Assembly: GCA_013001295.1 (NCBI GenBank)
Contig: JABDMW010000017.1
Coordinates: 80,788-144,787, forward strand
DNA length: 64,000 nucleotides
Reading direction: 5' to 3'
Source of the DNA: Hyphomonadaceae bacterium
GTDB lineage: Bacteria; Pseudomonadota; Alphaproteobacteria; Caulobacterales; Maricaulaceae
The position numbers and the translations under genes were made by a program. Below, piece by piece: positions 43,391 to 63,996 of the stretch. Within the stretch, counting starts at the first letter, position 1. The number at the start of each line of letters is the position of its first letter. The notes beneath the pieces were generated by a model. That model was not told where the DNA came from and ran no database searches. It saw nothing but the letters and a program-made list of their open reading frames with translations.

Positions 43391-44926
43391 CTAGCTAATA
43401 TTGCTGTCCGGGAAGCTGGCCTTTTTATCTTCCATATATTTGAGGAGCTTCGCGTCGATATCAGGATCGAGTTCCGGCGCTTTATATTCTGCCAACATGG
43501 TTTTATAGACCTTTTCCGCCCGATCTTCCGCGGTTGTAGACCCATCTTCCACCCATTGCTCATACGAATTATTATCTGAGATGTTTGAGCGGTAAAATGC
43601 GGTTTTAAAGTTCTTCTGCGTATGCTCACAGCCGAGGAAATGCTGCCCTGGCCCGACTTCTGCAATGGCGTCGAGAGCTTGTCCATTCTCAGACATATCG
43701 ACGCCTTTGGCAAATACGGCCATCATGCCGGCCTGATCAGCATCCATGACGAATTTCTCGTAGCCCATAGCGAGTCCACCTTCCAGCCAGCCAGCCGTGT
43801 GCAGCATGAAATTCACGCCGGCCATTAGCCCGGTTTGCAAGGAATTGGCAGATTCATACCCAGCCTGCGCGTCCGGTACTTTAGAGGCGTTAAACCCACC
43901 AGCAGAACGGAATGGGACCCCCAAACGCCGCGCAAGTGCTGCGCTCATATTAATGATCAATGAAGCTTCGGGTGTCCCGAATGTTGGTGCACCTGTTTGC
44001 ATGGACATGGACGTCACGAAGTTTCCATAAATGACGGGAGCGCCGGGACGAACAAGCTGGGTCAAGGCCATGCCTGCCAACCCTTCAGCCAAGCTTTGCG
44101 CTGCAACGCCGGCCGCTGTCACCGGAGACATGGCACCCGAGACAACGAATGGGCTTGGCATGGTTGCCTGACCATGACGCGCATAGTTTTTCAAGGCGCC
44201 TAACATGACCCGGTCCCAGGTCATTGGTGAATTCGCATTGATCAAACTGACCATCACGCAATTTTCTTCGACGAAGTCATCGCCAAATAGGATCTTACTC
44301 ATCTCAACGCAGTCCAGTGCCCGCCGTGGTGCCGTCACACTGCCCATAAACGGCTTATCGGAATGTTTCATATGGCTATAAAGCATGTCGTAATGGCGTT
44401 TGTTGACCGGGAGATCGACCGGCTCACACACCGTCCCGCCGCTATGATGCAAATTCGGCGACATATAGGCGAGTTTTACGAAATTCCTGAAATCCTCGAT
44501 ATTAGCGTAGCGCCGACCGCCCTCTTTCGAATACACGAATGGCGGGCCATAGGCCGGAACCAGGACTGTATTTTTTCCCCCGATCTCGACATTATTCTCA
44601 GAGTTGCGAGCGTGTTGGGTAAATTGTTTCGGCGCGGTTGCTTGTATGATTTCCCGGCACATGCCGCGCGGGAAGCGAACCCGTTCGCCGTCGGCTTTTG
44701 CACCGGCTTTGACAAAATAATCAATCGATTCCTGATCGTCTTGAATCTCCAGACCAATCTCTTCCAATATCTTGTCGGCGTTATCTTCCAGCTGGGCCAG
44801 GTCGGTATCGTTCAAAACCGAATAAGTTGGAATATTGCGTTTGATATAGGGTTCGCGAGGCGGTGCCTCGGCCGCTGCTGCTGCCGCTCGGCCTGCACGG
44901 CCCCCACTTCTTCCACGTCTCGCCAT
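43391..44926 (-). CDS. MttB-superfamily (non-pyrrolysine) trimethylamine/betaine:corrinoid methyltransferase
   Basis: 511-aa uninterrupted ORF; trimethylamine methyltransferase family sequence (GGTVCEPVDLPVNKRHYDMLYSHMKHSDKPFMGSVTAP, VGPGQHFLGCEHTQKNFKTAFYR); adjacent corrinoid protein and activator genes. Confidence 0.92.
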   Translation of the reverse strand: MARRGRSGGRAGRAAAAAAEAPPREPYIKRNIPTYSVLNDTDLAQLEDNADKILEEIGLEIQDDQESIDYFVKAGAKADGERVRFPRGMCREIIQATAPKQFTQHARNSENNVEIGGKNTVLVPAYGPPFVYSKEGGRRYANIEDFRNFVKLAYMSPNLHHSGGTVCEPVDLPVNKRHYDMLYSHMKHSDKPFMGSVTAPRRALDCVEMSKILFGDDFVEENCVMVSLINANSPMTWDRVMLGALKNYARHGQATMPSPFVVSGAMSPVTAAGVAAQSLAEGLAGMALTQLVRPGAPVIYGNFVTSMSMQTGAPTFGTPEASLIINMSAALARRLGVPFRSAGGFNASKVPDAQAGYESANSLQTGLMAGVNFMLHTAGWLEGGLAMGYEKFVMDADQAGMMAVFAKGVDMSENGQALDAIAEVGPGQHFLGCEHTQKNFKTAFYRSNISDNNSYEQWVEDGSTTAEDRAEKVYKTMLAEYKAPELDPDIDAKLLKYMEDKKASFPDSNIS

Positions 44927-44937
44927 AATGGCCTCCT

Positions 44938-46872
44938 TTACTTCCGCCGTCTGCGGCGTCCTTTTTTATAGTCTGTATTTATAGCTGTTGCTGTCGGGAA
45001 CTTCATCGCATCGACAAAATATTCCTGAAATTTTGGCTCGAGCGCTGTTTCCATTTTTTCTATGATCTTAACGGCGGCAATGATTTTGTTTTTTTCATCA
45101 ACATTGAGCAGCGCCATCGCCGCCCCCATGCCGGCCGCATTACCAATAGACCTGATTTTATCGGCGGGTGCATGGGGAATAATGCCGATATCGGCAACAT
45201 ACTTACTATCAAGATGGGTTCCAAAAGCCCCTGCCAACAGGATTTCATCAAACGCCTCACACCCGAGACTTTCAGCCAGCAATTGCACTCCGGCAAATAG
45301 TGCCGCCTTGGCCAATTGCACGGCGCGTATATCGGTTTGTTTAATGAAAATCGGGTTTTTGGCTTTGTTGACCAGGCAGTATTGCCAAACATTTCCTTCT
45401 TGCGAGAACCGGTGCGGTGCCGCGGTCGGGATGAACAATCCGCTTTGATCGAGCAAACCTGCATCGGCGAGCTCAACCATGACTTCGAAAATCCCGGATC
45501 CGCATATTCCTGTAATCCGGTGGGCGCCTAATGTCCCATCGGAGTCAGATATCCATTCATCATGACCGATAATCTTGACCTTTCCGTCCTTGGTCACCGG
45601 ATCTATGCGTACGCGTTCAATCGCCCCTAAACTCGCGCGCACACCCGAGCTGATCTCGGCGCCTTCCAGCGCCGGGCCGGTTGGAGAGGAGGCCGCGGCC
45701 GTTTTGCCGTTATGAGTAAGAACAATCTCCGCATTGGTGCCGATATCGACCAGGAGAACCGAGCGTCCTTGCATTGCGTCCATTTGAGTCAGGAATGCGG
45801 CTGCCGTATCGGCACCCACATGCCCCCCAATGAGCGGAAACCAGGATATCCGCGCCACGTCGGAAAGACCCATATTCAGATCCTTGGCAGGCACATCCAG
45901 CCAGTGTTTAACCGCGAGCGTAAACGGTGCCAGTCCCAATTCCACCGGATTTATCCCGTTGAAAAAATGATGCATGATCGGATTGCCGACCATCGTGATT
46001 TCAAGCAACTGGTTCGGACCCAGGTTTAAATGCTCGATCGCTTCATTGAGCATTGTCGAGACCTGACGCCGGATATCATCCGTCAGTTTATGTTCGCCGC
46101 CCTTGTTCATCATCACGTAGGAAACCCGGCTCATTAGATCCTCACCGAACCGGATTTGCGGATTCATCGCCGCCTTTTCAAACACCAGGTTGCCGGTTGT
46201 CAAATCGAAGACATACATAGCCACCGATGTCGACCCGACATCTATAGCGGCACCATATAGATCAAATGGAGACGGCGGCCAGACGTCGACGATATGGCTC
46301 TCATCGCGCACAACACAAATTACGGTGCGATCATTTTGCGCGAGAATTGGCTGCAATTTGGTCAAAACGCGGTGGGTCGGTCGAGCGTTTACGCCGAAAT
46401 CTGCTAACATCGCTGAAAGCGCTTCGCCGTCGCTTGGATTATCTTCCAAGGTTGGCACCGGCAGTTTGATCATGTGCAATTTGATAGAAGGATTTAGAGC
46501 GGTCTCAAATGTCGTACTTTTCTTCTGAATGGAGCTTTCTGCTTCACGGGCATCCGCGGGGATATTGACAACGAGATCACCGCAAACTTTAGCACGACAG
46601 GCGAGCCGACGGGTCTCTGACAATTCTTTGTCGTGGATTGCTTTTTTCTCGGTGGGCGACAGCTTCGAAACATTTTCCTCAAGAACCTCGAGTTTGAATT
46701 TAGCATGCTTGCCCGGATCAATCTCAATCTGGCATCTTTTGCATAGACCCTTGCCGCCGCAGATAGACTGAATATCGACTCCGGTTTCCAGCGCAACATC
46801 ATATACGCTCTGCCCTGCCTCCGCTGTGGCGCGTTTCCCTGACGGTGTAAATATGATCGTGTGCGAGCCCAT
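44938..46872 (-). CDS. Corrinoid reductive activator (RACo/RamA-like ASKHA ATPase with N-terminal 2Fe-2S ferredoxin domain, DUF4445)
   Basis: VDIQSICGGKGLCKRCQIEI [2Fe-2S]; YGAAIDVGSTSVAMYVFDLTTG, LVDIGTNAEIVL, GICGSGIFEVMVELADAGLLD; start taken at MGSHTIIF. Confidence 0.9.
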   Translation of the reverse strand: MGSHTIIFTPSGKRATAEAGQSVYDVALETGVDIQSICGGKGLCKRCQIEIDPGKHAKFKLEVLEENVSKLSPTEKKAIHDKELSETRRLACRAKVCGDLVVNIPADAREAESSIQKKSTTFETALNPSIKLHMIKLPVPTLEDNPSDGEALSAMLADFGVNARPTHRVLTKLQPILAQNDRTVICVVRDESHIVDVWPPSPFDLYGAAIDVGSTSVAMYVFDLTTGNLVFEKAAMNPQIRFGEDLMSRVSYVMMNKGGEHKLTDDIRRQVSTMLNEAIEHLNLGPNQLLEITMVGNPIMHHFFNGINPVELGLAPFTLAVKHWLDVPAKDLNMGLSDVARISWFPLIGGHVGADTAAAFLTQMDAMQGRSVLLVDIGTNAEIVLTHNGKTAAASSPTGPALEGAEISSGVRASLGAIERVRIDPVTKDGKVKIIGHDEWISDSDGTLGAHRITGICGSGIFEVMVELADAGLLDQSGLFIPTAAPHRFSQEGNVWQYCLVNKAKNPIFIKQTDIRAVQLAKAALFAGVQLLAESLGCEAFDEILLAGAFGTHLDSKYVADIGIIPHAPADKIRSIGNAAGMGAAMALLNVDEKNKIIAAVKIIEKMETALEPKFQEYFVDAMKFPTATAINTDYKKGRRRRRK

Positions 46873-46873
46873 A

Positions 46874-47290
46874 TTAGGTCCGAAGCGCTCCTTCTGGATA
46901 AGTTTCATATTGCGGCAAGCCATCGGTAATTTCATAATAATCCGGCTTTTCCGACACGAAAATATGGCCTTTCACCTTAAGGCCTTTGGTATTATCGATA
47001 TTTCCAGCAAGAACGCTGACAGTGGGCCTACTTGGCATATCCCAAAACAAATAGCTGCCGCAGGAATTGCAATGTCCTGATCGAGACCTGTCCGAGATTG
47101 GGAGCCAATTGACGTCACCCTTAATCGTCAGTTTGTCTCGTTCGACCCCGGCGGCCGCGATATACAAGCCGGTTAAATGCTGGCACTGTGTACAATGACA
47201 ATACCAGATATCGGACATGTCCTGGGCGGTGAATGTCACATCACCGCATAGGCATTTCCCTGTATATATTTTAGGCGCGTCTGCGGCCAC
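46874..47290 (-). CDS. GFA (glutathione-dependent formaldehyde-activating)-like zinc protein
   Basis: GKCLCGDVTFTAQD...WYCHCTQCQHLTG...HCNSCGSYLFWDMPSRP; probable GTG start at 47290. Confidence 0.85.
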   Translation of the reverse strand: MAADAPKIYTGKCLCGDVTFTAQDMSDIWYCHCTQCQHLTGLYIAAAGVERDKLTIKGDVNWLPISDRSRSGHCNSCGSYLFWDMPSRPTVSVLAGNIDNTKGLKVKGHIFVSEKPDYYEITDGLPQYETYPEGALRT

Positions 47291-48173
47291 GACGCCCTCC
47301 CCGTCCCCGACGTTCTTCACCCGCGGCGGGCGCCGGACGATAATTTTTGATCCAGTTCCCACAGCCGGGATCGACACCATTTAAGACGTCAGAAGCGCGG
47401 ACTGCAGGTACGAGGCCTTCATGCAACGGATTAACGATCGCAGATGTCATGCCGGCACAGGCCAACATCGGCAGGAATGCATTGTTGATGGCATGGCGAT
47501 TTGGCAGGCCAAACGCGACGTTGGACGCCCCACATGTCGTGTTGACACCCAACTCATTTCTCAACCGGTGCAAGAGCCGAAAGACATCTTTGCCTGCACT
47601 GTTTACGGCGCCGACCGGCATGACCAGCGGGTCAACGACGACATCTTCCGCCTTAATCCCATAATCGCTGGCACGGTTGACGATCCTTTTAGCGACCTCG
47701 AAACGAACATCGGGATCTTCAGATATGCCGGTATCGTCATTAGAGATTGCTACAACGGCGCAATCATATTTTTTGACCAGCGGCAGCACTCTTTCCATGA
47801 CTTCTTCTTCAGCCGTGGTTGAATTAAGAAGTGGCCGGCCTTTATACGCGGCCAAGCCGGATTCGAGCGCTTCAATAATGGAGCTGTCAATACATAGCGG
47901 GGCATCAGTCAAGCCTTGAATCAACGGGATAACTTCCCCCATAATTCCCGGCTCGTCGGCCAAGGGCACGCCGACATTGACATCGAGCACTTGCGCGCCT
48001 GCTTCAACCTGCGCCAAGGCTTCTTTTTTGACGCGCCAATAATTGTTCTCTTTCAGTTCTTTTGAAAAAAGCTTCCGGCCCGTCGGATTGATCCGCTCTC
48101 CGATCATGACAAAGGGTTGATCAAAGCCGATGACGACTTCTTTGGTAGCGGATGCGAGTATTGTTCTTGCCAT
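47271..48173 (-). CDS. Pterin-binding methyltransferase (MtgA/AcsE-like methylcorrinoid:tetrahydrofolate methyltransferase)
   Basis: FVMIGERINPTGRKLFSKEL, AGAQVLDVNVGVPLADE, NTTCGASNVAFGLPNRHAINNAFL. Confidence 0.9.
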   Translation of the reverse strand: MARTILASATKEVVIGFDQPFVMIGERINPTGRKLFSKELKENNYWRVKKEALAQVEAGAQVLDVNVGVPLADEPGIMGEVIPLIQGLTDAPLCIDSSIIEALESGLAAYKGRPLLNSTTAEEEVMERVLPLVKKYDCAVVAISNDDTGISEDPDVRFEVAKRIVNRASDYGIKAEDVVVDPLVMPVGAVNSAGKDVFRLLHRLRNELGVNTTCGASNVAFGLPNRHAINNAFLPMLACAGMTSAIVNPLHEGLVPAVRASDVLNGVDPGCGNWIKNYRPAPAAGEERRGRGGRRGRRRA

Positions 48174-48182
48174 CTTGTTTTC

Positions 48183-49214
48183 CTAACTGACTAATCCAAT
48201 TGTTGTTTCTGAATGATCGGGAGACCACGGCGTGCGTCCTGCCAACACGCCGGAACTTTTGACGACATCGCCTACCCATTTTTCTTGCCGGTAGGCCATC
48301 ACGTGCAAGCCCGCAACGCCCGGAATTTCCTTGATTTCCTGCATGAGTTCGACGCAAATATTGCGACCTTCACGCAGCGGCTTATCGGCGCTTTTCAAAC
48401 GATTAATGATCTCATCGGGTATGTGCACACCGGGCACATTCTCGCGCATCCAGCTCGCTGTTCTGGCTGAAGGTAAAACACCAACGCCGATTAAAATATA
48501 GCAGTTTTCAGTTAGCCCCATATCGACCGCGCGTTTCATAAAGTCCTTAAGGACAGGAATGTCGAAACAATACTGAGATTGGATATACTCCGCGCCCGCA
48601 TTGATTTTCTTGGCCAATTGATTGACCCGAGAATGTTGAGGGGGAACGAACGGGTTGATCGTCGATCCAATAAATATCTTTGGCGCCAGATCCAGCTTAC
48701 GTCCGCTCAAAAAACGCGATTCATCTCGCAATACACGCAAAGTCTTTGTCAGAGAAATGCTATCAAGATCAAAAACCGGTTTGGCTTCTGGATGATCACC
48801 GGCTCCAACATCATCTCCTGTAAGTGATAGGACGTTGCATACGCCGAGCGCAGCGGCTCCCAAGGTGTCGCCTTGAATGGATATCCGGTTTCGGTCGCGG
48901 CAGGAAATTTGCAAGATTGGCGAATATCCGACACGGGTAAGAATGGCGCACACTGCAAGGCTGGACATATGGCAATTTCCGCCCGATCCGTCTGTTGCAT
49001 TGATGGCGTCAACATAACCGTCAAACAGCGAAGCTCTTTTCAAGACTTCGTCCGGGTCAGAAGAATCCGGCGGCGCGATTTCCGTAGTGACCGCGAAATT
49101 TCCAGCCCGTAACACGCGTTCGAACCGACCGTGAGAGACGTGGCCCGGCAGTGACACCAACGGATCGCCCGGATTTGTGCCGACTCTTTCTACGTCTATA
49201 TCGTGCTTATTCAT
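48183..49214 (-). CDS. metF: Methylenetetrahydrofolate reductase, MetF-type
   Basis: AGNFAVTTEIAPPDSSDPDEVLKRA...DAINATDGSGGNCHMSSLA...SLTGDDVGAGDHPEAKPVFDLDS; start taken at MNKHDIDVERV. Confidence 0.9.
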   Translation of the reverse strand: MNKHDIDVERVGTNPGDPLVSLPGHVSHGRFERVLRAGNFAVTTEIAPPDSSDPDEVLKRASLFDGYVDAINATDGSGGNCHMSSLAVCAILTRVGYSPILQISCRDRNRISIQGDTLGAAALGVCNVLSLTGDDVGAGDHPEAKPVFDLDSISLTKTLRVLRDESRFLSGRKLDLAPKIFIGSTINPFVPPQHSRVNQLAKKINAGAEYIQSQYCFDIPVLKDFMKRAVDMGLTENCYILIGVGVLPSARTASWMRENVPGVHIPDEIINRLKSADKPLREGRNICVELMQEIKEIPGVAGLHVMAYRQEKWVGDVVKSSGVLAGRTPWSPDHSETTIGLVS

Positions 49215-49662
49215 CTGTAGTCTTTTCGTCTCTTGCCAGCTTAAGCCAGGTTGATGTGCCTTTTTCACGGTGATCGACCGCGAATTCATTGTTCTGGATG
49301 GCGTCACCGTTTTTCATGCGCGATGCGCCGTCCCAAGCTAGCACCCAAACACAATTCATGTCCGGCTTGACCTCACACATGCCGTTTGCGCGCACACCGC
49401 CACACGGACCGTTGCGTAAGGTTTTTGGGCAATTCATCGGACATGACATACCGGTTTTTGACAGCGCGCAATCACCGCACATCTGACAATCAAACAGGAA
49501 TCCTTTGACGCCTGCTTCCATTGCCGTAATTGGCCGATCCAGTCTCTTTCCGAATATTTTTGTTACGCCTTTCAGCACCAGCAAAATGCCGGGGTTCGCT
49601 GTATTGTAGAGCCTCTCCATAAACCGCGAATGGCGGACGGACCATAACCGTACTTTATACAT
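49207..49662 (-). CDS. Cysteine-rich MTHFR C-terminal-domain protein (MetV-like)
   Basis: FLFDCQMCGDCALSKTGMSCPMNCPKTLRNGPCGGVRANGMCEVKPDMNCVW; start at MYKVRLWS; overlaps the metF start. Confidence 0.87.
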   Translation of the reverse strand: MYKVRLWSVRHSRFMERLYNTANPGILLVLKGVTKIFGKRLDRPITAMEAGVKGFLFDCQMCGDCALSKTGMSCPMNCPKTLRNGPCGGVRANGMCEVKPDMNCVWVLAWDGASRMKNGDAIQNNEFAVDHREKGTSTWLKLARDEKTTDE

Positions 49663-50281
49663 GGGGGCGACCCCCTGTTTGCAGCGTTGAAATGTGAGTG
49701 GCAAGTTCACCATACCCGACGTTGCGGTTTTCGAATTCTAATCCGAGAAAATCGGCGGCTTTTTTGGCTCGCGCGATCAACTCTGCGCTCGGGGCCTGCG
49801 AAATATAAATCAACCGTTTGTAATGCTTGAAGTAATCGTCCTTTAAATTCGGATATCTATCTATCCCAAATCCTTTAATTATCAATGTTTCAAAATGACG
49901 GACCAGATAATCGGTCAGAAAAAAACTTCCGAGTTCGTCTTCCATCATATCGTCAAATACCGACAATCCAGAATAAAAAGCGTAGCAATGAGCCCCTGGC
50001 AAGCGCTCGGTTTTGGGATATTTTTCCATCATTCGATCAAGTCCACCGCCAGTCCCGCAATCTCCATAACCGATCAGAATCCGGTCATAGTCGTCGCCTC
50101 TGGCATCGATTATCTCCTTCAACCCAGGAACGATTTTATCCGGGAAATTATGATAGCCGGCAGGAAGACATTGCAAATCGAAAACCCCGTCTTCCATTTT
50201 CAAATTTTCTTTAACCGCAAGAATTTCCTTGGCGAGGGCGCCACATGCAACGATCAGTGTTTTATGTGAAGCCTCTTCCAT
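49655..50281 (-). CDS. DUF1638 protein
   Basis: TLIVACGALAKEILAVKE...DRILIGYGDCGTGGGLDRMM...HCYAFYSGLSVF; found within the corrinoid operon. Confidence 0.88.
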   Translation of the reverse strand: MEEASHKTLIVACGALAKEILAVKENLKMEDGVFDLQCLPAGYHNFPDKIVPGLKEIIDARGDDYDRILIGYGDCGTGGGLDRMMEKYPKTERLPGAHCYAFYSGLSVFDDMMEDELGSFFLTDYLVRHFETLIIKGFGIDRYPNLKDDYFKHYKRLIYISQAPSAELIARAKKAADFLGLEFENRNVGYGELATHISTLQTGGRPHV

Positions 50282-50287
50282 ATCGCA

Positions 50288-50980
50288 TTACCGATTCTTG
50301 CCCATGATGGCCTTGGCCAGCTCGGAACTCATCGCGGCGTCCCGGCCATATGTGTGTGCATTGATGGCGTCCGCAAATTCCTGGTTGAGTGGTGCACCAC
50401 CAACCATAACCGGGAGTTCCTTCAAAATATTGCGTTTGTCGAGCTCTTCAATCACAACCCCCATATACGGCATCGTTGTGGTAAGAAGTGCCGACATGCC
50501 GAGAATATCAGGTTCGTGCTTGTCGATGGCTTCAAGATACTCCTCGACCGGCGTATTGATACCTAGATCGATCACTTCAAACCCGGCACCTTCCAGCATC
50601 ATGCCGACGAGGTTTTTGCCGATGTCATGGATGTCACCCTTTACGGTGCCAATTACATATTTACCAGTACTGGAGGCATTTTCAGTGGCAGCGAGGATAG
50701 GCCGTAGCAGCGCCATACCGCCCTTCATGGCGTTAGCGCTTTGCAAAACTTCCGGGACAAAGAGGATTCCATCGCGGAAATCAATTCCGACAATGCGCAT
50801 GCCCTCGACCAAAGCGTCGTTAAGCACCATATTGGCGTCCCAACCGCGATCAAGCAGGATTTGCGTCCCCTCCGTGACTTCCGGGATCATGCCATCATAC
50901 AGATCGTCCTGCATTTGGGCGACAAGATCATCGTCATTTAAATCCTTGAGGATGATTTCTTCTTCGTCTTGATCACTCAT
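50288..50980 (-). CDS. Corrinoid (B12-binding) methyl-carrier protein, MttC/MtgC type
   Basis: DIHDIGKNLVGMMLEGAGFEVIDLG (DxHxxG) with an upstream helical cap. Confidence 0.94.
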   Translation of the reverse strand: MSDQDEEEIILKDLNDDDLVAQMQDDLYDGMIPEVTEGTQILLDRGWDANMVLNDALVEGMRIVGIDFRDGILFVPEVLQSANAMKGGMALLRPILAATENASSTGKYVIGTVKGDIHDIGKNLVGMMLEGAGFEVIDLGINTPVEEYLEAIDKHEPDILGMSALLTTTMPYMGVVIEELDKRNILKELPVMVGGAPLNQEFADAINAHTYGRDAAMSSELAKAIMGKNR

Positions 50981-51006: not shown

Positions 51007-52707
51007 TTACGCCAGCCCAACGATTAGACCGTCTTCATCGAGCCCGATATCAAGAGCTGCCGGATGACGCGGTAGTCCCGGCATCCGCATAATCGTTCCA
51101 CAAATTGCCACCACAAATCCCGCACCCGCGTTCAATGTCGCTTCACGTACTTCAACCGTATGTCCGGTTGTGGCACCCAATTGAGTTGGGTCAGTGGAAA
51201 AACTCGACTGGGTTTTGGCGATACAGATTGGCAAATGCCCGAATCCCATTTTTTGTATCGACCGCATCGACTTTGCGGCTTCACCGGTGAGCACAATATC
51301 ATCGGCGCGATAAATCGCTTTGGCAACTTTACGGACTTTTTCCTCGAGTTTGTCTTTGTCGTCATACATCAATGTGACTTTAGGCTTTGGCCCATCGAGC
51401 CTTGCCTTTACGGCATTTGCCAAGCCTTCCGCACCGGCTCCGCCCTCAGCCCAATGCTTGGAAATAACCATGGTTACGCCCTCGCCTTCGCAGACTTTAC
51501 GGACGACATCGATTTCTTCATTGGTGTCATGCACAAAATGATTGACGGCGACGACTGGTGCCAGACCGAATTTCTTCATATTCTGGATATGCCGACGAAC
51601 ATTCACGCATCCTTCGCGTACGGCTTCGACATTGGCAGGACCTAAATCATTTTTACTGACGCCGCCCTGCATTTTCATGGCGCGGATTGTGCACACAAGT
51701 ACAACAGCGTCCGGACGCAAACCTGTCTGACGACATTTAATATCCAGGAACTTCTCAGCACCCAGATCGGCACCGAAACCGGCCTCGGTAACGACGACAT
51801 CTGCGAGCTTTAAAGCCGTTTGCGTCGCAACCGCACTATTACAACCATGAGCAATATTTGCGAATGGGCCACCATGGATGAAGGCCATATTGTGCTCGAT
51901 CGATTGCACGAGGTTAGGTTGGAATGCATCTTTTAGTAAAACAGTTACAGCGCCATCTGCGCCGAGATCGCGCACAGTAACGGGTTTTCTTTTGCGGGTT
52001 TGGCCAACAATGATATCGCCGATCCGTTTTTGCAGATCTTTCAAATCAGTGGCAAGGCAGAAAATCGCCATGATTTCAGATGCAACAGTGATATCAAACC
52101 CACCTTCGCGCGGAATCCCTTGGGTCGGCCCGCCGAGTCCTATCACGATATCGCGCAGTGCCCGGTCATTCATGTCAACAACGCGGCGCCACGTAATTCG
52201 GCGTGGATCAATATCAAGCTCATTACCCCACTGCATGTGATTATCCAGCATGGCGGAAATCAGAGAATGGGCCGATGTGATAGCGTGAAAATCGCCATTG
52301 AAATGAAGATTGATATCCTCCATGGGCAAAACCTGCGCTCGACCACCGCCAGCAGCACCGCCCTTCATGCCAAAACAGGGACCAAGTGAGGGTTCGCGTA
52401 AGCAGACAAGCGAATTAACGCCGATCCGATTTAACCCATCACTGAGGCCAACGCTGGTCGTTGTCTTTCCCTCACCTGCCGGAGTCGGGGTCACAGCAGT
52501 AACCAAAACCAACTTGCCGTCCGGCTTATCTTTAACAGAGTCGATGTAATCGAGAGAGAGTTTGGCCTTGAAATGCCCATAAGGAACCAAAGCTTCGGCC
52601 GGAATTCCCAATTTATCCTTCGCCAAAGGCAAAATTGGTTTCATTCTCGCCGCACGCGCAATTTCAATATCAGGAGCGCCGGGCGCTGGAAGGTTTTGTT
52701 GTGTCAT
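51007..52707 (-). CDS. fhs: Formate-tetrahydrofolate ligase
   Basis: [59 protein letters not shown]. Confidence 0.97.
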
Positions 52708-53079: not shown

Positions 53080-53337
53080 ATGTCAAACCTTGAAGAACTC
53101 GAACCAATCGACAGCCCGTGTCAGCTTATCTGTTCTATGGACAAGGAAAGCGGCCATTGCTTTGGTTGCGGGCGGACGATGGATGAAATCGCCTATTGGG
53201 CGTTAAAAACGCAAGATGAGCGCGACGCGATTCTAGCACAGCTCGAAGCCCGTATGCCGCCCTTGCGCATTAAATTGGCCGAACGGCGCACACGACGTCG
53301 GGTCAACAAGCGCCGCACCCGGAAACCCGAGTCATAA
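53080..53337 (+). CDS. DUF1289 protein
   Basis: DSPCQLICSMDKESGHCFGCGRTMDEIAYW. Confidence 0.92.
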   Translation: MSNLEELEPIDSPCQLICSMDKESGHCFGCGRTMDEIAYWALKTQDERDAILAQLEARMPPLRIKLAERRTRRRVNKRRTRKPES

Positions 53338-54300
53338 ATGTTTGGTCAAAATAAAGGGAAAAGCCCGCAATCCATTGGTTTCCTACTTCTTCCTCAATTT
53401 TCCCTGATCGCATTTACTGCGAGCATTGAGCCTTTGCGATCTGCAAACCGGCTATCAAGGCAACATCTCTACAATTGGACGACGATCAGCTTTGATGGAT
53501 TGCCGGTTGAAGCCAGCAATCTAGTGACGATTACACCGGATTGCGCGTTAAAGCATGCTAAGAACTGCGACGTGATCTTCGCGTGTGCTGGTGTTCAACC
53601 CCTCAAAAATGTGCCAAACGGACTGGCTGGAGAATTACGCGCATTGGCGCGGACTGGACTGCCGCTGGGCAGTGTTTGCACGGGCTCGGTCGCGCTTGCA
53701 AAAGCGGGATTGCTCGACGGGCATCGCTGTACCATCCATTGGGAAAACATTGAAACATTCGCTGAGACTTTCCCCGATCTTGAAATCACAGCGACGCTGT
53801 TTGAAATTGACCGAAAACGGTACACATGCTCAGGGGGTACGGCGCCTCTGGATATGATGATCTACTCGATTAAACTCGACCATGGAGAAACGCTCGCGCT
53901 GAACGTCGCGGAGCAAATGCTGCTTAATTTCGTCCGCGAACCGGACGAACGGCAACGTATGGCCATCGAATACAGAACCGGGATCAAACACCCAAAGCTA
54001 TTAGCGGCCATCAGCTTAATGGAAGCACATATTGAAACACCTTTAACTCTTGTTGAACTTAGTGGAAAAGTCGATTTATCAATTCGGCAATTGGAGCGAT
54101 TGTTCAATTCCCATGTTAATTTGACGCCGGCAAAATATTATCTCGATATACGCATCAAAAGGGCAAGGCAGTATTTGCGCCAATCACCGTTGACCATTAC
54201 TGAAATAGGTATCGCAACCGGCTTTAGTTCAGCCTCACATTTTACCCAAGTATATAAAGCCCACTTCGGTCATCCGCCTTCAAAAGAACGGCAAAACTGA
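53338..54300 (+). CDS. GlxA-family AraC-type regulator, GbdR/CdhR-like
   Basis: IGFLLLPQFSLIAFTASIEPLRSANRLSRQHLYNW DJ-1/PfpI-like N-terminus; C-terminal AraC HTH. Confidence 0.88.
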   Translation: MFGQNKGKSPQSIGFLLLPQFSLIAFTASIEPLRSANRLSRQHLYNWTTISFDGLPVEASNLVTITPDCALKHAKNCDVIFACAGVQPLKNVPNGLAGELRALARTGLPLGSVCTGSVALAKAGLLDGHRCTIHWENIETFAETFPDLEITATLFEIDRKRYTCSGGTAPLDMMIYSIKLDHGETLALNVAEQMLLNFVREPDERQRMAIEYRTGIKHPKLLAAISLMEAHIETPLTLVELSGKVDLSIRQLERLFNSHVNLTPAKYYLDIRIKRARQYLRQSPLTITEIGIATGFSSASHFTQVYKAHFGHPPSKERQN

Positions 54301-56921: not shown

Positions 56922-58031
56922 ATGGACCCAATACTCTCAATATCCTGCCGGACGCGGTCGACACCCTTTACCCGACGCGTGACCGAAGCAGGTGTCAAAG
57001 GCTATACTGTATACAATCATATGCTCCTTCCGACCGTATTTGACAGTGTTGTTGCAGATTACGTGCACCTGAAAAAACACGTTCAAGTCTGGGATGTGGC
57101 ATGCGAACGACAGGTCGAGATTAAAGGACCGGACGCGTCAAAATTGGTGCAAATGCTGACACCGCGCAACCTCCAGAACATGGGCGAAGATCAGTGCTAT
57201 TATATTCCCGTTGTCGATGAGAATGGCGGCATGCTTAATGACCCGGTTGCTGTGAAACACAATGATAACCGCTGGTGGATTTCATTGGCTGACTCAGACC
57301 TGATGTATTGGATCAAGGGATTGGCGCTCGGGCGCAAATTGAAGGTTGACGTGTTTGAGCCGGACGTCTCACCTTTGGCCATTCAAGGACCCAAATCTAA
57401 CGAACTGATGGCGCGTCTCTTCGGAGACGATATCAAGGAATTGAAGTTTTTCCGGCACCGGAAGATCCGGTTCGGAGACAATGAATTTACCGTTGCACGC
57501 TCGGGATATTCAGTCCAAGGCGGATTTGAAATCTACGTCGAAAACACCAAAAACGGTGAACAGCTATGGGATGCATTGTTCGAGGCCGGTGAAGACTTGA
57601 ATGTTCGGGCTGGCTGTCCAAATCTGATCGAACGAATTGAAGGCGGGCTCTTATCATATGGCAATGACATGACCATTGAAAATACGCCTTATGAATGTGG
57701 ACTGGGCAAGTTTTGCAAAGGCGACGCGGCCAAAGACTGTATTGGCGCCGACGTTTTACAAAAAGAGCTGGAGAACGGACCAAAACGGCAAATCCGGGGT
57801 ATTGTCATAAATGGAGACGCCACACCACCGTGTCGTGATCCATGGCCTCTTGTGAATGCTGAAGGCAAACCGGTTGGACAGGTCACGTCAGCGGCCTGGT
57901 CACCGGCTTTCAATACCCATGTCGCTATCGGGATGGTCGATAAATCAGATTGGAAAATCGGAAATCAATTGACTGTTCAAACATCGGATGGAGATCGTGC
58001 CGGTGAAGTCAGAAACCTTCCGTTTGTTTAG
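56922..58031 (+). CDS. dmdA: DMSP demethylase-type GcvT-fold protein (DmdA family)
   Basis: RTRSTPFTRRVTEAGVKGYTVYNHMLLPTVFDSVVADYVHLKKHVQVWDVACERQVEIKGPDA and RAGCPNLIERIEGGLLSYGNDMTIENTPYECGL closely match the DmdA pattern I know from SAR11. Confidence 0.85.
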   Translation: MDPILSISCRTRSTPFTRRVTEAGVKGYTVYNHMLLPTVFDSVVADYVHLKKHVQVWDVACERQVEIKGPDASKLVQMLTPRNLQNMGEDQCYYIPVVDENGGMLNDPVAVKHNDNRWWISLADSDLMYWIKGLALGRKLKVDVFEPDVSPLAIQGPKSNELMARLFGDDIKELKFFRHRKIRFGDNEFTVARSGYSVQGGFEIYVENTKNGEQLWDALFEAGEDLNVRAGCPNLIERIEGGLLSYGNDMTIENTPYECGLGKFCKGDAAKDCIGADVLQKELENGPKRQIRGIVINGDATPPCRDPWPLVNAEGKPVGQVTSAAWSPAFNTHVAIGMVDKSDWKIGNQLTVQTSDGDRAGEVRNLPFV

Positions 58032-58576
58032 GCAATATCGCGGCTAAACGCGGTCCAAAAATCGACCATATACGGCGCGAATGACCGCCAGCATTCGATT
58101 TGAAACGTATCCTCACCGGATCGATAGAGCTGTATCGGCGCGTTTTCAAAAATTGTCCGGGTCGCCTTTCCAACCGGAAAGGATTTTAGTGATAGATCCA
58201 GCGGACACCCGATATTCACAGCTTCATTCGCAAGACGGCCGGAGACGTTAAATGCAATATTTCGGTGCGATATATCGGTTGCGCTCATCACAAATTGACC
58301 GGCAAGTTTTGAAAGTTTCTTGGCAATCTTTTCGCGGCTCTTAGCGTCATCAGAAATCACCCACTCATCCGGACCAAACTTAGATATCAGCTGAGTTCCG
58401 GTTTTGGCAGTTGCGCCGATCTTCACAGGAAATTTAAACCCACTTGCCTTTTTAAACGCGGCAACGTCTTTGGATTTTACCCGCACGTTAAAACGCGCCT
58501 TTTCCGGTTCCAGCGCTATATTTAAGGCGTCACCCGAGAGCGCTTCGGGAATGTCAATTCCTTGATCAAACAACAT
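58028..58576 (-). CDS. soxG: Sarcosine oxidase gamma subunit
   Basis: Last gene of the soxBDA line; WVISDDAKSREKIAKKLSKLAGQFVMSATDISHRNIAFNVSG. Confidence 0.88.
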   Translation of the reverse strand: MLFDQGIDIPEALSGDALNIALEPEKARFNVRVKSKDVAAFKKASGFKFPVKIGATAKTGTQLISKFGPDEWVISDDAKSREKIAKKLSKLAGQFVMSATDISHRNIAFNVSGRLANEAVNIGCPLDLSLKSFPVGKATRTIFENAPIQLYRSGEDTFQIECWRSFAPYMVDFWTAFSRDIA

Positions 58577-61526
58577 TAAGTCGCTCCCCTTTTGGATCGT
58601 AGAAAACCGGTGCCGTAATTCTCGCCGTGTGCGTCTGGCCGGGCATGGGAATGTAGACGTCGGTATCGGTCAAATTCACACCGTCTTTGACCAATGCCAT
58701 GGCGATTGAACGCCCAAGCGCCTCGCTCCAATAGCTGGATGTGACATGACCAATCATATCCATCGGTATCGGTTGATCCGGATCGGCAACGATTTGCGCA
58801 CCCTCTTCCAAAACGACATTAGGATCTTCAGTCAACAGTCCAACCAATTGTTTGCGACCTTCGGCGACCAAATCGGGACGCGCCAGCGAACGCTTGCCGA
58901 CAAAGTCTTTTTTCTTCTTGGATACCGCCCACGGCATGCCGGCATCAAATGGCGTGACGGTACCGTCTGTGTCCTGGCCGACAATGATGAAGCCTTTCTC
59001 GGCGCGCAAAACATGCATGGTCTCGGTGCCGTATGGTGTTATGTCGTATTGCTGACCGGCTTCAAACAGCATTTCCCAGACCGCGCGCCCGTAATGCGCA
59101 GGGATATTGATTTCAAAACCGAGCTCACCGGAAAAGCTAACACGGAACAATCGTGTGGGAACGCCGCAAATCTTTCCTTCGCGGAACGCCATGTGCGGAA
59201 AATTTTCGCGGCTTAAATCGATGCCTTCAACGAATGGCTCAATAAGCTTTCGGGCGTTCGGGCCATTAAGCGCAATCACGGCCCATTGCTCCGTGGTTGA
59301 CGTGAGCCAGACATCAAGCTCAGTAAATTCGGTTTGCAGATAATCTTCCATATGTCGATATACCCGCGGCGCGCCGCCCGTTGTGGTCGTTACGTGAAAA
59401 CGATCTTCCGCTAAACGTCCGACAACGCCGTCGTCATAAATATATCCATCTTCGCGCAACATCAGTCCATATCGACACGATCCGGTCTTTAAAGCGTTCC
59501 AAGGATTCGTGTACATCAAATTCATGAATTTAGCGGCGTCTGGCCCGACAACTTCAATTTTACCCAAAGTAGACGCATCAAAAATACCGAGACTTTCCCG
59601 CGTCGCTTTACATTCGCGCGCCACAGCCTGGTGCATATCTTCGCCCTTTTTCGGGAAATACCAGGCACGACGCCATATCCCTACTGGCTCGAAAACCACC
59701 TTTTGCGCCTCAGCCCAAGGATCAATCGGCGTTTTGCGCGTAACTTCGAACAGCTGATCATTACGATAGCCGGCAACTGCCCCGAACGTGGTCGGCGTAT
59801 AGGGCGGCCGGAAAGTCGTCAGACCGACTTTTTCAACCGGCTGATCGACGGCTTTGGCCGCAATCTGCAGAGCATTGAGGTTCGACGTTTTCCCCTGGTC
59901 GGTCGCCATGCCGTTGGTCGTATAGCGCTTCACATGCTCGATGGATTTAAATCCTTCCCGCACGGCAAGTTTGATATCTTTTTCAGTCACATCGTTTTGA
60001 AAATCGACAAACGCCTTTTGTTTGGATGTGTCAATATAATTGGGCAGCGTATCGAGTGAAATTCCCGTTCCAAAATCAAATTCGTTCGTATTGAATTTTT
60101 TGCGTCCACCACCTGCTTTTGTACCGGCATTTAAAGCCGCCGCAACGCCAAAATCTCCATTACAAGCTCCCACAGACACGCAATTTTCGTTGGCCTGATC
60201 AGGAATATAGGCCGCAAGATCAGCATCCCATTTGATTCCGCCTTTAGAATGTGACCATAAATGCAGGCTTGGTGTCCAGCCACCAGACATGATGAGGGCA
60301 TCACACCCTATCATTTGCTTAGAACCGGTGTTTGGATAAAAGACCTCAATCGACTTGATACGGTGTTTGCCTTTGGTTTTTGATACGGCACTGCCCAGGA
60401 ACAAATCGATACCGCGTTGTTCCGCTTGTTCTTTTAGATCGGTACGAATGTCCTCGCGTATATCGACGATCGCCGGAATGCGAATATTTGAATCAGATAA
60501 ATTAAACGCCGCTTCGTACGCGCTGTCATGACTGGTAAACACCGCGACTTCATTACCAACAGCAACACCGTATTTCCCCAAATAAGTCTGCGCCGAGGAA
60601 GCCAGCATCACACCCGGGCGATCATTACCATTGAACACCAAAGGTCTTTCGATCGCCCCCTGCGCCAAAATGACCTTCCCCGCCCGTATTCTGTGCAGCT
60701 TCTCACGTGCCGGCCCAATTTCGACGCCAGGAATATGGTCCGTCAATCGTTCTGCCAACGCGACGAAATTATCATGGAAATAACCAATCGCTGTCGTGCG
60801 GGACATGACCCTAACATTTTCAGTTTTGCGTAATTTTTCCAGAGACTTAGCGAGCCAATCTAATGCAAACTTTCCTTCTATCTGCACGCCTGGTGTCGAC
60901 AATAAACTCCCGCCCAATTCCGGGTTTTCATCACATAAAATCACACGGCCGCCGTTTCGCGCTGCGCTCAGCGCGGCGGCAATACCGGACGGGCCGGCCC
61001 CGACAATCAAAGTTTCGCAATGCCCATAGGTGCTGGCGTAATTATCAGGATCTGGATGTTCGGGCGCAGGTCCAAGGCCGGCCATATTGCGAATAAATGG
61101 CTCATAGACCTTGTCCCAGAAACTGGCTGGCCATTTAAAGGTCTTGTTGTAAAAACCCGCCGGAAAAAACATCGAAAAAGTGTTGTTAAAAGCGCCAATA
61201 TCCGTCTTTAAATTTGGCCAACGATTTTGGCTATTGGCTTTCAAACCGTCATAGAGTTCCAGAGATGTGGCCCGGACATTAGGCGTAATGCGCCCCTGCC
61301 CACGATCTACTGCAACCAGCGCATTTGGCTCTTCCGAGCCGGCGCCGACAACACCGCGCGGCCTGTGATATTTAAAGGACCGGCCCATAAGATGCACGCC
61401 GTTGGCAAGCAAGGCGCTCGCCAAGGTATCGCCTTGCACGCCTTGGTACGACTTGCCATCAAAACTGAAATTCAACGTTTTGGAAACATCAACGTTTCCA
61501 TGGCCAGGCCTGCGAAATTTAGTCAT
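58566..61526 (-). CDS. soxA: Sarcosine oxidase alpha subunit
   Basis: 986 aa: SFDGKSYQGVQGDTLASALLANGVHLMGRSFKYHRPRGVVGAGSEEPNALV; NAD-binding domain; C-terminal GcvT domain. Confidence 0.96.
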   Translation of the reverse strand: MTKFRRPGHGNVDVSKTLNFSFDGKSYQGVQGDTLASALLANGVHLMGRSFKYHRPRGVVGAGSEEPNALVAVDRGQGRITPNVRATSLELYDGLKANSQNRWPNLKTDIGAFNNTFSMFFPAGFYNKTFKWPASFWDKVYEPFIRNMAGLGPAPEHPDPDNYASTYGHCETLIVGAGPSGIAAALSAARNGGRVILCDENPELGGSLLSTPGVQIEGKFALDWLAKSLEKLRKTENVRVMSRTTAIGYFHDNFVALAERLTDHIPGVEIGPAREKLHRIRAGKVILAQGAIERPLVFNGNDRPGVMLASSAQTYLGKYGVAVGNEVAVFTSHDSAYEAAFNLSDSNIRIPAIVDIREDIRTDLKEQAEQRGIDLFLGSAVSKTKGKHRIKSIEVFYPNTGSKQMIGCDALIMSGGWTPSLHLWSHSKGGIKWDADLAAYIPDQANENCVSVGACNGDFGVAAALNAGTKAGGGRKKFNTNEFDFGTGISLDTLPNYIDTSKQKAFVDFQNDVTEKDIKLAVREGFKSIEHVKRYTTNGMATDQGKTSNLNALQIAAKAVDQPVEKVGLTTFRPPYTPTTFGAVAGYRNDQLFEVTRKTPIDPWAEAQKVVFEPVGIWRRAWYFPKKGEDMHQAVARECKATRESLGIFDASTLGKIEVVGPDAAKFMNLMYTNPWNALKTGSCRYGLMLREDGYIYDDGVVGRLAEDRFHVTTTTGGAPRVYRHMEDYLQTEFTELDVWLTSTTEQWAVIALNGPNARKLIEPFVEGIDLSRENFPHMAFREGKICGVPTRLFRVSFSGELGFEINIPAHYGRAVWEMLFEAGQQYDITPYGTETMHVLRAEKGFIIVGQDTDGTVTPFDAGMPWAVSKKKKDFVGKRSLARPDLVAEGRKQLVGLLTEDPNVVLEEGAQIVADPDQPIPMDMIGHVTSSYWSEALGRSIAMALVKDGVNLTDTDVYIPMPGQTHTARITAPVFYDPKGERLNVV

Positions 61527-61830
61527 TTTTCGCGACCTTGATTTGGTGTTCGGTTGGTCGTTTTTGACAGACCTTATAGGTCATTGTAAACTTATCGGTG
61601 ACAGTGTTCCGGATGGCGTTGAAAAACATATTGCAGCCGTGGGCATGCCACCAACGCTCTGCGTGATCGCCGCGTATATTGTCGCGAATAAACATGAATT
61701 TCGACCAGTCCGCGTCCGACATCTCCGCCTGCTCAGCCTCATTGGGACGTACAATATGGGCTTCGCCGGCATAGGCAAATTCCAGTTCCGGGCGTTCTTC
61801 GTTACAATGAGGGCAATGTATGAGTAGCAT
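61519..61830 (-). CDS. soxD: Sarcosine oxidase delta subunit
   Basis: MLLIHCPHCNEERPELEFAYAGEAHIVRP; CPxC zinc-site motif. Confidence 0.94.
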   Translation of the reverse strand: MLLIHCPHCNEERPELEFAYAGEAHIVRPNEAEQAEMSDADWSKFMFIRDNIRGDHAERWWHAHGCNMFFNAIRNTVTDKFTMTYKVCQKRPTEHQIKVAKND

Positions 61831-61840
61831 CCCTATCTCT

Positions 61841-63091
61841 CTAATGTGCTACGGCAGCGGCCGCTGCTTCATCAATCAACCGGCCACCGACAAACCGATC
61901 GAGGTTAAATGGGGCATTGATTTTGTGCGGTGCATCATGGGCAATGGTATAAGCCAGCATATCAGCAGCGCCGGGCGTGGCTTTGAAACCTCCCGTTCCC
62001 CAACCGCAATTGACGTATAGCCCGGGAACCGGCGTTTTCCCGACAATTGGCGAACGGTCTGGTGTCACGTCCACAATTCCGCCCCATGAGCGCAGCATGC
62101 GCTGGCGTTTAAATATCGGGAATATTTCGCAGATCGACATCAAAGTATGTTCGAGGATATGCAGGGCGCCGCGCTGTGAATAACTGGTATATTGATCCGT
62201 CCCGGCCCCGATGACCAATTCGCCTTTGTCGGACTGGCTAATATAGGCATGCACAGCATTAGACATAACCACACAATTCAGTACGGGTTTCACCGGCTCG
62301 GATACCAATGCCTGCAAGGGATAGCTTTCAAGCGGAAAACGTAGTCCGGCCATATCCATGACCACGGACGTGTTGCCCGCCGCCGACACGCCGATTTTCT
62401 TGGCACCAATAAAGCCTTTTTGGGTTTCGACGCCTTCGACGGCACCATCCTTGCCGCGTCTGATGCCGGTGACCATGCAATTTTGGATAATATCAACACC
62501 GAGAGCGGAGGCAGCGCGGGCATAGCCCCAGGCGACGCTGTCATGGCGCGCCGTTCCGGCCCGCATTTGCAACGCCCCACCCATGACCGGATAACGGCGG
62601 TCTTGCGAAATATCGAGGATCGGTAGGAATTTTTTACATTCCTCCGGTGTCAGCCATTTATTGTCGACACCGTTTAGACGGTTTGCATGCACGTGACGTT
62701 GAAAACTCTGAACATCATGAACATTGTGCGCCAGCATCAAAACACCGCGTTTCGAAAACATGACGTTGTAGTTTAGTTCCTGAGATAAACCGTCCCAGAG
62801 ATCGACCGCGTGATCATAAATCCCTGCACTCTCGTCGAATAAGTAGTTTGAGCGAATGATTGTCGTGTTGCGACCGGTATTGCCACCACCGAGCCAACCC
62901 TTTTCGACCACGGCAACATTGGTGATGCCGTACTTTTTCGCCAAATAGTAAGCGGCCCCCAGCCCGTGCCCGCCAGCACCGACGATGACGACATCATAAT
63001 CTTTCTGTGGCTCTTTATTCGGGAACTGTTCAGGCCAGTTTTTATGGCCTTTCAGCGCCTGCGAAAACAAAGTCCGGGCGGAATATTTCAC
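61841..63091 (-). CDS. soxB: Sarcosine oxidase beta subunit
   Basis: [68 protein letters not shown]. Confidence 0.96.
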
Positions 63092-63093
63092 GT

Positions 63094-63996
63094 TTAGCTC
63101 CGAAGCTTCTCATTGGTTGGATCGTGTGGGCTATCCTCCAATACCCGGCATTTATACATTTTGCCAAGGATATCTATTTCCAAATCAGTGCCAACTGCCG
63201 AATGTTCGGGGTCAACCATTGCAAGCGCGAGAGAGGTCATCATGCGCCAGCCAAACCCGCCACCAGTGGCTCGACCAACGACCTCACCATCTTTATAGAT
63301 CGGGTTGTTGCCAATAGCGTCCGCATCATCAACGCCCAGGACTTCCAGAGTGACAAACGCGTTTTTAAATCCGCGTTTCTCCCATGCCAGCAGTGCATCT
63401 TTACCGAGAAATCCGCCTTTCTTCTTCAAATTGACAAAGCGGTTAAGCCCACTTTCATACGCTGCATATTCGATAGACATTTCCGTGCCGACAAGACGGT
63501 AAGATTTTTCAAGCCGCATGGAGTTCATGGCGCGGATACCGAACGGCTTCAGGCCATGCTTTTCACCGTTCTTGAAGAGCGTATCGAAGATATGGTTCTG
63601 GTATTCAATCGGATGATGGATTTCCCACCCGAGCTCACCGACGAAATTGACCCGCAGCAGTTTCACCGGAGCATACCCGACGCTTGTTTCCTGCCCGGTC
63701 AACCACGGGAAGTTTTCATTGGACAGATCAGACCCACAAACCGGCTGCAACAAATCGCGGGCTTTCGGACCGGCGACAACCAATACGCCCATGGAATTGG
63801 TGAGGTCTGTAAATTGAACCGATCCGTCTGTTGGCATATGTTTTTTAAGCCAATCATGATCCAGACGATGGTAAGCACCAGCCGAGACCATGTAAAAACT
63901 GTCTTTGCTTTCCCGTTGCACAGTGAATTCAGAGTGCACACCTCCTTTCGATGTCAAACCATGGCAAAGCGCCAATCGCCCATGGGTGATAGGCAT
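63094..63996 (-). CDS. GcvT-domain protein, C-terminal part (probably a dimethylglycine dehydrogenase/aminomethyltransferase-type protein continuing beyond the right edge)
   Basis: [28 protein letters not shown]...[18 protein letters not shown]...[22 protein letters not shown]; begins at the window edge without a plausible N-terminal GcvT start. Confidence 0.8.

Follow-up and report, generated by a model that had tools for sequence, protein, structure and literature searches.

Three enzymes of one operon in a Hyphomonadaceae bacterium, an MttB-family methyltransferase, the methyltransferase MtgD and a corrinoid activator, carry short Arg-rich tails, and we think it rather probable, from the comparative sequence evidence laid out below, that these tails are disordered docking elements for a shared partner, the corrinoid protein MtgC, which replace the covalent linkers of MetH. 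The tails themselves are real and beyond chance. The basic peptides quoted in the preliminary description of the window (the whole 64,000-nucleotide stretch of DNA that was analysed) for MttB, the activator and an MtgA-like protein, which is MtgD, match the translation exactly. The interval given there, 44938-47330, spans the C-terminal tails of the activator and MtgD and excludes the N-terminal tail of MttB (44849-44926), which lies just outside it.

The tailed enzymes belong to a predicted glycine betaine demethylation operon

Judged by its gene content, the minus-strand operon is an aerobic glycine betaine demethylation system of the MtgBCD type, as in Ruegeria pomeroyi (PMC12478193). It encodes Fhs, an MtgC-type corrinoid protein, a DUF1638 protein, a MetV-like DUF5981 protein, MetF2, MtgD, a GFA-family ORF, a RACo/RamA-type activator and MttB (Table 1). 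The MttB-family gene is of the non-pyrrolysine type, with its 511-aa frame unbroken, and the domain set of the activator is complete, comprising a 2Fe-2S domain and the RACo linker, middle and C-terminal ASKHA domains (PF00111, PF17650, PF17651, PF14574). Both MtgC (cap and B12-binding domains; PF02607, PF02310) and MtgD (PF00809) are stand-alone proteins. The real start of the GFA-family ORF is probably a GTG near 47291; this family is of the glutathione-dependent formaldehyde-activating type, and such a gene adjoins MtgD in few relatives and is absent there in most loci. The neighborhood includes further glycine betaine metabolism genes, namely a GbdR-like regulator upstream of the operon, which scores 356 bits against NF052371, below that profile's cutoff of 480, and a sarcosine-oxidase-type cluster that is the probable source of the later demethylation steps. 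Beside the regulator, a small DUF1289 protein (53080-53337, plus strand) likewise has a basic R/K tail at its end, RRTRRRVNKRRTRKPES, so that not every basic tail here need involve MtgC.

Table 1. Positions in the window of the operon genes, their neighbors and the charged segments
Feature	Position	Strand	Evidence
MttB-family (MtgB-like) corrinoid-dependent methyltransferase, 511 aa	43391..44926	-	PF06253, E 5e-221; 689.7 bits to PDB 4yyc
N-terminal Arg/Gly/Ala-rich tail of MttB, residues 1-26, MARRGRSGGRAGRAAAAAAEAPPREP	44849..44926	-	Sequence; type conserved
RACo/RamA-type ASKHA corrinoid activator, 665 aa	44938..46935	-	PF14574, PF17651, PF17650, PF00111; homologous to RACo 3zyy
C-terminal Arg-rich tail of activator, DYKKGRRRRRK	44941..44973	-	Sequence; orthologues
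GFA-family ORF, no tail, overlaps MtgD tail codons	46874..47380	-	PF04828, match from residue 39
MtgD-type methyltetrahydrofolate:corrinoid methyltransferase, 300 aa	47271..48173	-	PF00809; NF005719 over cutoff
C-terminal RG/RR tail of MtgD, EERRGRGGRRGRRRA	47274..47318	-	Sequence; orthologues
MetF2-type methylene-THF reductase, no tail	48183..49307	-	PF02219
MetV-like DUF5981 protein, no RG/RR tail	49207..49713	-	PF12225
DUF1638 protein, no tail	49655..50281	-	PF07796
MtgC-type corrinoid protein, 230 aa	50288..50980	-	PF02310 and PF02607; top NCBIfam match MtgC NF047996, under cutoff
Acidic N-terminal extension of MtgC, residues 1-22, MSDQDEEEIILKDLNDDDLVAQ	50915..50980	-	Orthologues, column conservation, structure model
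Formate-THF ligase (Fhs), no tail	51007..52707	-	PF01268
AraC/GlxA-type regulator, related to GbdR (choline/glycine betaine regulator)	53338..54300	+	NF052371 GbdR is top NCBIfam match
Sarcosine-oxidase-type gamma and alpha subunits, FAD oxidoreductase, aminomethyltransferase	58028..63996	-	PF04268, PF17806, PF01266, PF01571

The tails are rare in the sampled part of the genome and conserved across several bacterial phyla

A background set of 368 predicted genes, each at least 90 aa long, was drawn from the window plus a further 400 kb of its genome, together about 13% of the total. In this set only MtgD and the activator have at least five Arg and a net charge of at least +5 in their last 16 residues. 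The MttB N-terminal tail is less extreme alone, with 9 of the 368 genes passing a loose N-terminal criterion, some of them with doubtful starts; it draws its weight from conservation. Residues 1-20 of MttB are of low confidence (disordered) in the AlphaFold model, at block pLDDT values of 41 and 58.

Conservation was assessed in about 60 alphaproteobacterial genomes and 80 named loci, the latter spanning Alpha-, Beta- and Gammaproteobacteria, Acidimicrobiia and other Actinomycetota, and Acidobacteriota. By a fixed rule applied to the last 40 residues, a basic C-terminal end is found in 134/134 complete MtgD orthologues and 116/118 complete activator orthologues, and a tail is present in about 116 of 119 MttB-family proteins; these genome counts are non-independent. 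There may have been a single gain of the tail per family, in which case the system-level association between tails and the MtgC extension (below) could rest on few events. Two MttB proteins lack a clear tail (L260, L261) and two have a weak one (L404 and one L316 copy), while for those of L100, L294, L406 and one L340 copy the start initially chosen was wrong and the tail is encoded upstream. A net charge of at least +5 per 12 residues occurs at the relevant end in fractions of 0.99 for MtgD, 0.84 for the activator and 0.81 for the MttB N-terminus, and the same measure gives 0.01 for DUF1638, 0 for Fhs and 0.10 for MetF. Arg makes up 0.88-0.97 of Arg plus Lys in the tails of MtgD, the activator and MttB versus 0.57-0.66 in the protein bodies.

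What recurs is the type of tail; the exact letters vary. That the tails cannot be aligned residue by residue, and that the MtgD tail overlaps the GFA ORF here, would be expected if they were neutral low-complexity drift or an artifact of GC-rich composition or overlapping genes. However, tail strength is equal in loci below 45% and above 65% GC, which rules out a composition artifact, and the tails are kept where no GFA gene overlaps, which rules out a by-product of that gene. Retention is moreover near-universal, so that the refuting outcome named in the preliminary description, a lack of tails in close orthologues, did not occur, and both sister enzymes and paralogues are without tails. We regard drift or artifact as extremely improbable.

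Tails are confined to enzymes that contact the corrinoid protein

Within the sampled loci, tails are restricted to the proteins that must contact the corrinoid protein (MtgB, MtgD and the activator); MetF, MetV, Fhs and DUF1638 of the same loci have no Arg-rich tails, which rules out a general habit of pathway proteins. Binding of folate polyglutamate is disfavored, because the folate enzymes MetF and Fhs are tail-less, whereas tails do occur on MtgB, MtgE and the activator, none of which is known to bind folate.

Since the tails track contact with the corrinoid protein, MtgE, a fourth partner encoded elsewhere, was predicted to be tailed as well, and a tail is indeed present in 32/32 MtgE-like proteins. 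No Arg-rich tails were found on the PF02574 paralogues that do not use MtgC, i.e., MetH-type homocysteine modules and MmuM-like proteins. The threshold did flag four lower-scoring homocysteine proteins, of which three are MetH-type (basic residues of the normal MetH sequence, with no tails by eye) and one is a partial MtgE-like protein whose tail looks genuine; it also flagged some MtgD-like paralogues whose ends are basic yet mostly non-RG. The genome under study has no tailed MtgE, its PF02574 members being one MetH-type module and one MmuM-like protein, both tail-less. Its cobalamin-dependent MetH seems to be split over separate frames, one for a homocysteine module of about 350 aa and another for the remainder of the protein (L245, contig C29:37500-41800).

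The MttB family offers a further comparison. Paralogues starting with "MRPTLxVLS" have no N-terminal tail but a C-terminal one of the RRGRRGRRRRG type, and they form one clade with 100% support. The occurrence of the tail at opposite ends of one family argues for selection acting on the tail itself and against a sequence stretch simply passed on by descent. The earlier argument that tails on different folds are hard to explain by descent is thus strengthened by this clade and by MtgE, the fourth tailed fold. At one locus (L340:13820-16888), an N-tailed MttB-family gene lies directly upstream of a C-tailed one, and the two types also co-occur in L291, L314, L316 and L338; such a pair may represent a two-subunit enzyme.

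MtgC carries a conserved acidic N-terminal extension

The corrinoid protein itself has a segment of opposite charge. All 99 of 99 MtgC orthologues contain a 12-residue stretch with a net charge of −5 or lower within their first 40 residues, and the extension is retained across Alpha-, Beta- and Gammaproteobacteria, Actinomycetota and Acidobacteriota. Column conservation gives a pattern of acidic residues, [ILF]-x-L, and then L-x-D-x-[DE]-L-V-x-Q-M-x-D-D-L-Y-[DN]-G. In the structure model, residues 1-6 are of low confidence, roughly the first 8 are taken as disordered, and the acidic cap helix runs from residue 16. The nearest folds (Foldseek) are MttC, MtaC, MetH and Desulfitobacterium corrinoid structures, and solved corrinoid proteins align to MtgC only from about residue 16-23, the chains of 7xcn and 2i2x from about residue 16. 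The extension is absent from the paralogous corrinoid proteins examined.

The preliminary description had offered assembly with an acidic partner as one option. The comparative evidence now points to MtgC, with its acidic extension, as the probable partner; the charge complementarity of tails and extension is circumstantial support for docking. The tails could instead anchor the enzymes at the membrane, an option also listed in the preliminary description, or hold them to some different acidic partner, such as a low-potential electron donor for the activator. Basic tails can, as is generally known, bind anionic lipids, but these contain no hydrophobic anchors, we saw no sign that MtgD or MtgE need a membrane, and DUF1638, the remaining candidate in the operon, is not strikingly acidic. 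Such tethering seems very unlikely to us.

Paralogous corrinoid systems serve as natural controls

Second systems in the same genomes, with their own activator and MtgD-like protein (L255-L257), have neither the extension nor RG/RR tails, and both are also absent from the corrinoid systems of Acetoanaerobium and Gemmatirosa (L357, L359) and from those at eleven more loci (L390-L400). By automatic scoring, the activator tail is present in 83/85 systems with the MtgC extension versus 1/7 without it. Most of the paralogous systems that lack tails are only distantly related (25-35% identity) and differ in other respects as well. A closer case is L258, where a duplicated MtgD that is 60% identical to that of the window has lost its RG tail, and nothing in the sequence indicates a frameshift; it adjoins corrinoid proteins lacking the extension, but the activator of this locus has a partly basic end, which counts against docking. 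L258 (2258-19474) is a variant locus with URO-D-like proteins and two extension-less corrinoid proteins, in a genome that also has a tailed system. In the haloarchaeon Halomicrococcus, the corrinoid protein is acidic overall and there are no tails.

A small protein of the PF13769 ("Virulence_fact") family is a regular neighbor of methylotrophy operons (L355:4544-4846; L358:5212-5547), and the Gemmatirosa corrinoid protein (L359:6479-7444) includes a fused segment that resembles it. The family name looks misleading, and a role of this protein in corrinoid methyl transfer is likely.

Arg/Gly-rich tails are reminiscent of the RGG/RG segments generally known to bind RNA, and they might co-localize the pathway enzymes on nucleic acid, ribosomes or polyphosphate, with the MtgC extension being unrelated. 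That tails occur only on enzymes that meet MtgC, and not on others of the same operon, argues against this, as does their restriction, at other loci, to the MtgC-linked PF02574 paralogue MtgE. Nucleic acid binding also leaves the acidic extension and the joint absence of both features in paralogous systems unexplained, and we consider it unlikely.

A proposed model of charge docking on MtgC

In the docking model, the separate polypeptides of this split aerobic system must each face the same corrinoid on MtgC. MtgB would pass a methyl group from glycine betaine to the corrinoid, MtgD would exchange methyl groups between the corrinoid and tetrahydrofolate, MtgE, where present, would move the methyl group from the corrinoid to homocysteine, and the RACo/RamA-type activator would re-reduce the corrinoid. 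Each partner would contribute one short basic tail that pairs by charge with the extension of MtgC, envisaged as a disordered stretch of about 8 Asp/Glu residues, followed by an I/L-x-L motif and an acidic lengthening of cap helix 1. Charge attraction would make encounters more frequent, concentrate the partners locally and permit their quick exchange, and several MttB-family enzymes might share one MtgC carrier. We infer that the tails bind the extension, with faster hand-over or less loss of Co(I) in air as the putative gain. Against docking, DUF1638 is tied to reactivation yet tail-less, and the genome under study has no tailed MtgE.

Tails and extension might, instead of docking one to one, build a multivalent condensate or other large assembly. 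Arg-rich and acidic segments are generally known to be able to phase-separate. Methanogen MttB is a hexamer (PMC9842639), and with MttB homologues hexameric, six tails would be displayed per MttB assembly. However, tails and extension alike are short, and on MtgC there appears to be just one acidic segment, which makes a condensate distinctly unlikely in our judgment.

It is tempting to extend the docking model to a charge-tag system, present in mainly aerobic bacteria of at least three phyla, in which an Arg-rich tail gained at either end makes a methyltransferase or activase a client of MtgC; here we see the case for and the case against as evenly balanced. The window has both sequence traits proposed for the docking group, the acidic N-terminal extension of the corrinoid protein and the basic tails of its partners.

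Comparison with known systems

The window has components like those of MtgBCDE of Ruegeria pomeroyi and Phaeobacter inhibens, a glycine betaine demethylase and split methionine synthase (PMC12478193, PMC5764234). Shared parts are PF06253 MtgB, MtgC, MtgD, MetF2, the RamA-type activator and DUF1638, and the context, with a GbdR-like regulator and sarcosine-oxidase-type genes, is likewise similar. In Phaeobacter, the genes for MtgC, MtgD, MtgE, the activator and DUF1638 are linked to methionine synthesis, and DUF1638 has a genetic link to corrinoid reactivation (PMC5764234); in Ruegeria, mutation of mtgC or mtgD abolishes methionine synthesis as well as growth on betaine (PMC12478193). Unlike the split methionine synthase of MtgC, MtgD and MtgE, the genome of the window has no MtgE-type homocysteine module and keeps a two-ORF MetH. 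The Mtg enzyme system is already published, whereas the common tails and the acidic hub appear undescribed: a text search of PMC12478193 and PMC5764234 found no mention of tails, and the limited collection of literature searched held none of tails or of the MtgC extension.

In MetH, equivalent modules (homocysteine, folate, cap plus B12, and reactivation) take turns at one cobalamin as in Mtg, but they are covalently linked rather than separate polypeptides, and the MetH homocysteine module has no such tail. A short acidic hub segment also has a likeness in SSB, whose acidic C-terminal tip, a short acidic and hydrophobic segment, recruits many unrelated partners. SSB partners bind through folded basic pockets, whereas the basic tails of the Mtg partners are disordered and the proposed hub is the carrier of a cofactor. 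The pairs MttB-MttC and MtaB-MtaC (PDB 7xcn, 2i2x) combine, as in Mtg, a methyltransferase with a separate corrinoid protein. The extra N-terminal domain of MtaC fits a groove between MtaB subunits (PMC9842639) and is a precedent for an N-terminal docking aid, although it is a folded domain (PMC9842639), in contrast to the charge-matched disordered segment of MtgC with its several proposed partners.

Significance

Expression of the Mtg pathway in the oceans is reportedly high (PMC12478193). If true, the docking model would explain how a modular enzyme can work when each module has its own gene, and how methionine synthesis and the degradation of several betaines can share one corrinoid protein. 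The tail would also be a cheap sequence signature, flagging new MtgC clients among the many uncharacterized MttB-family proteins.
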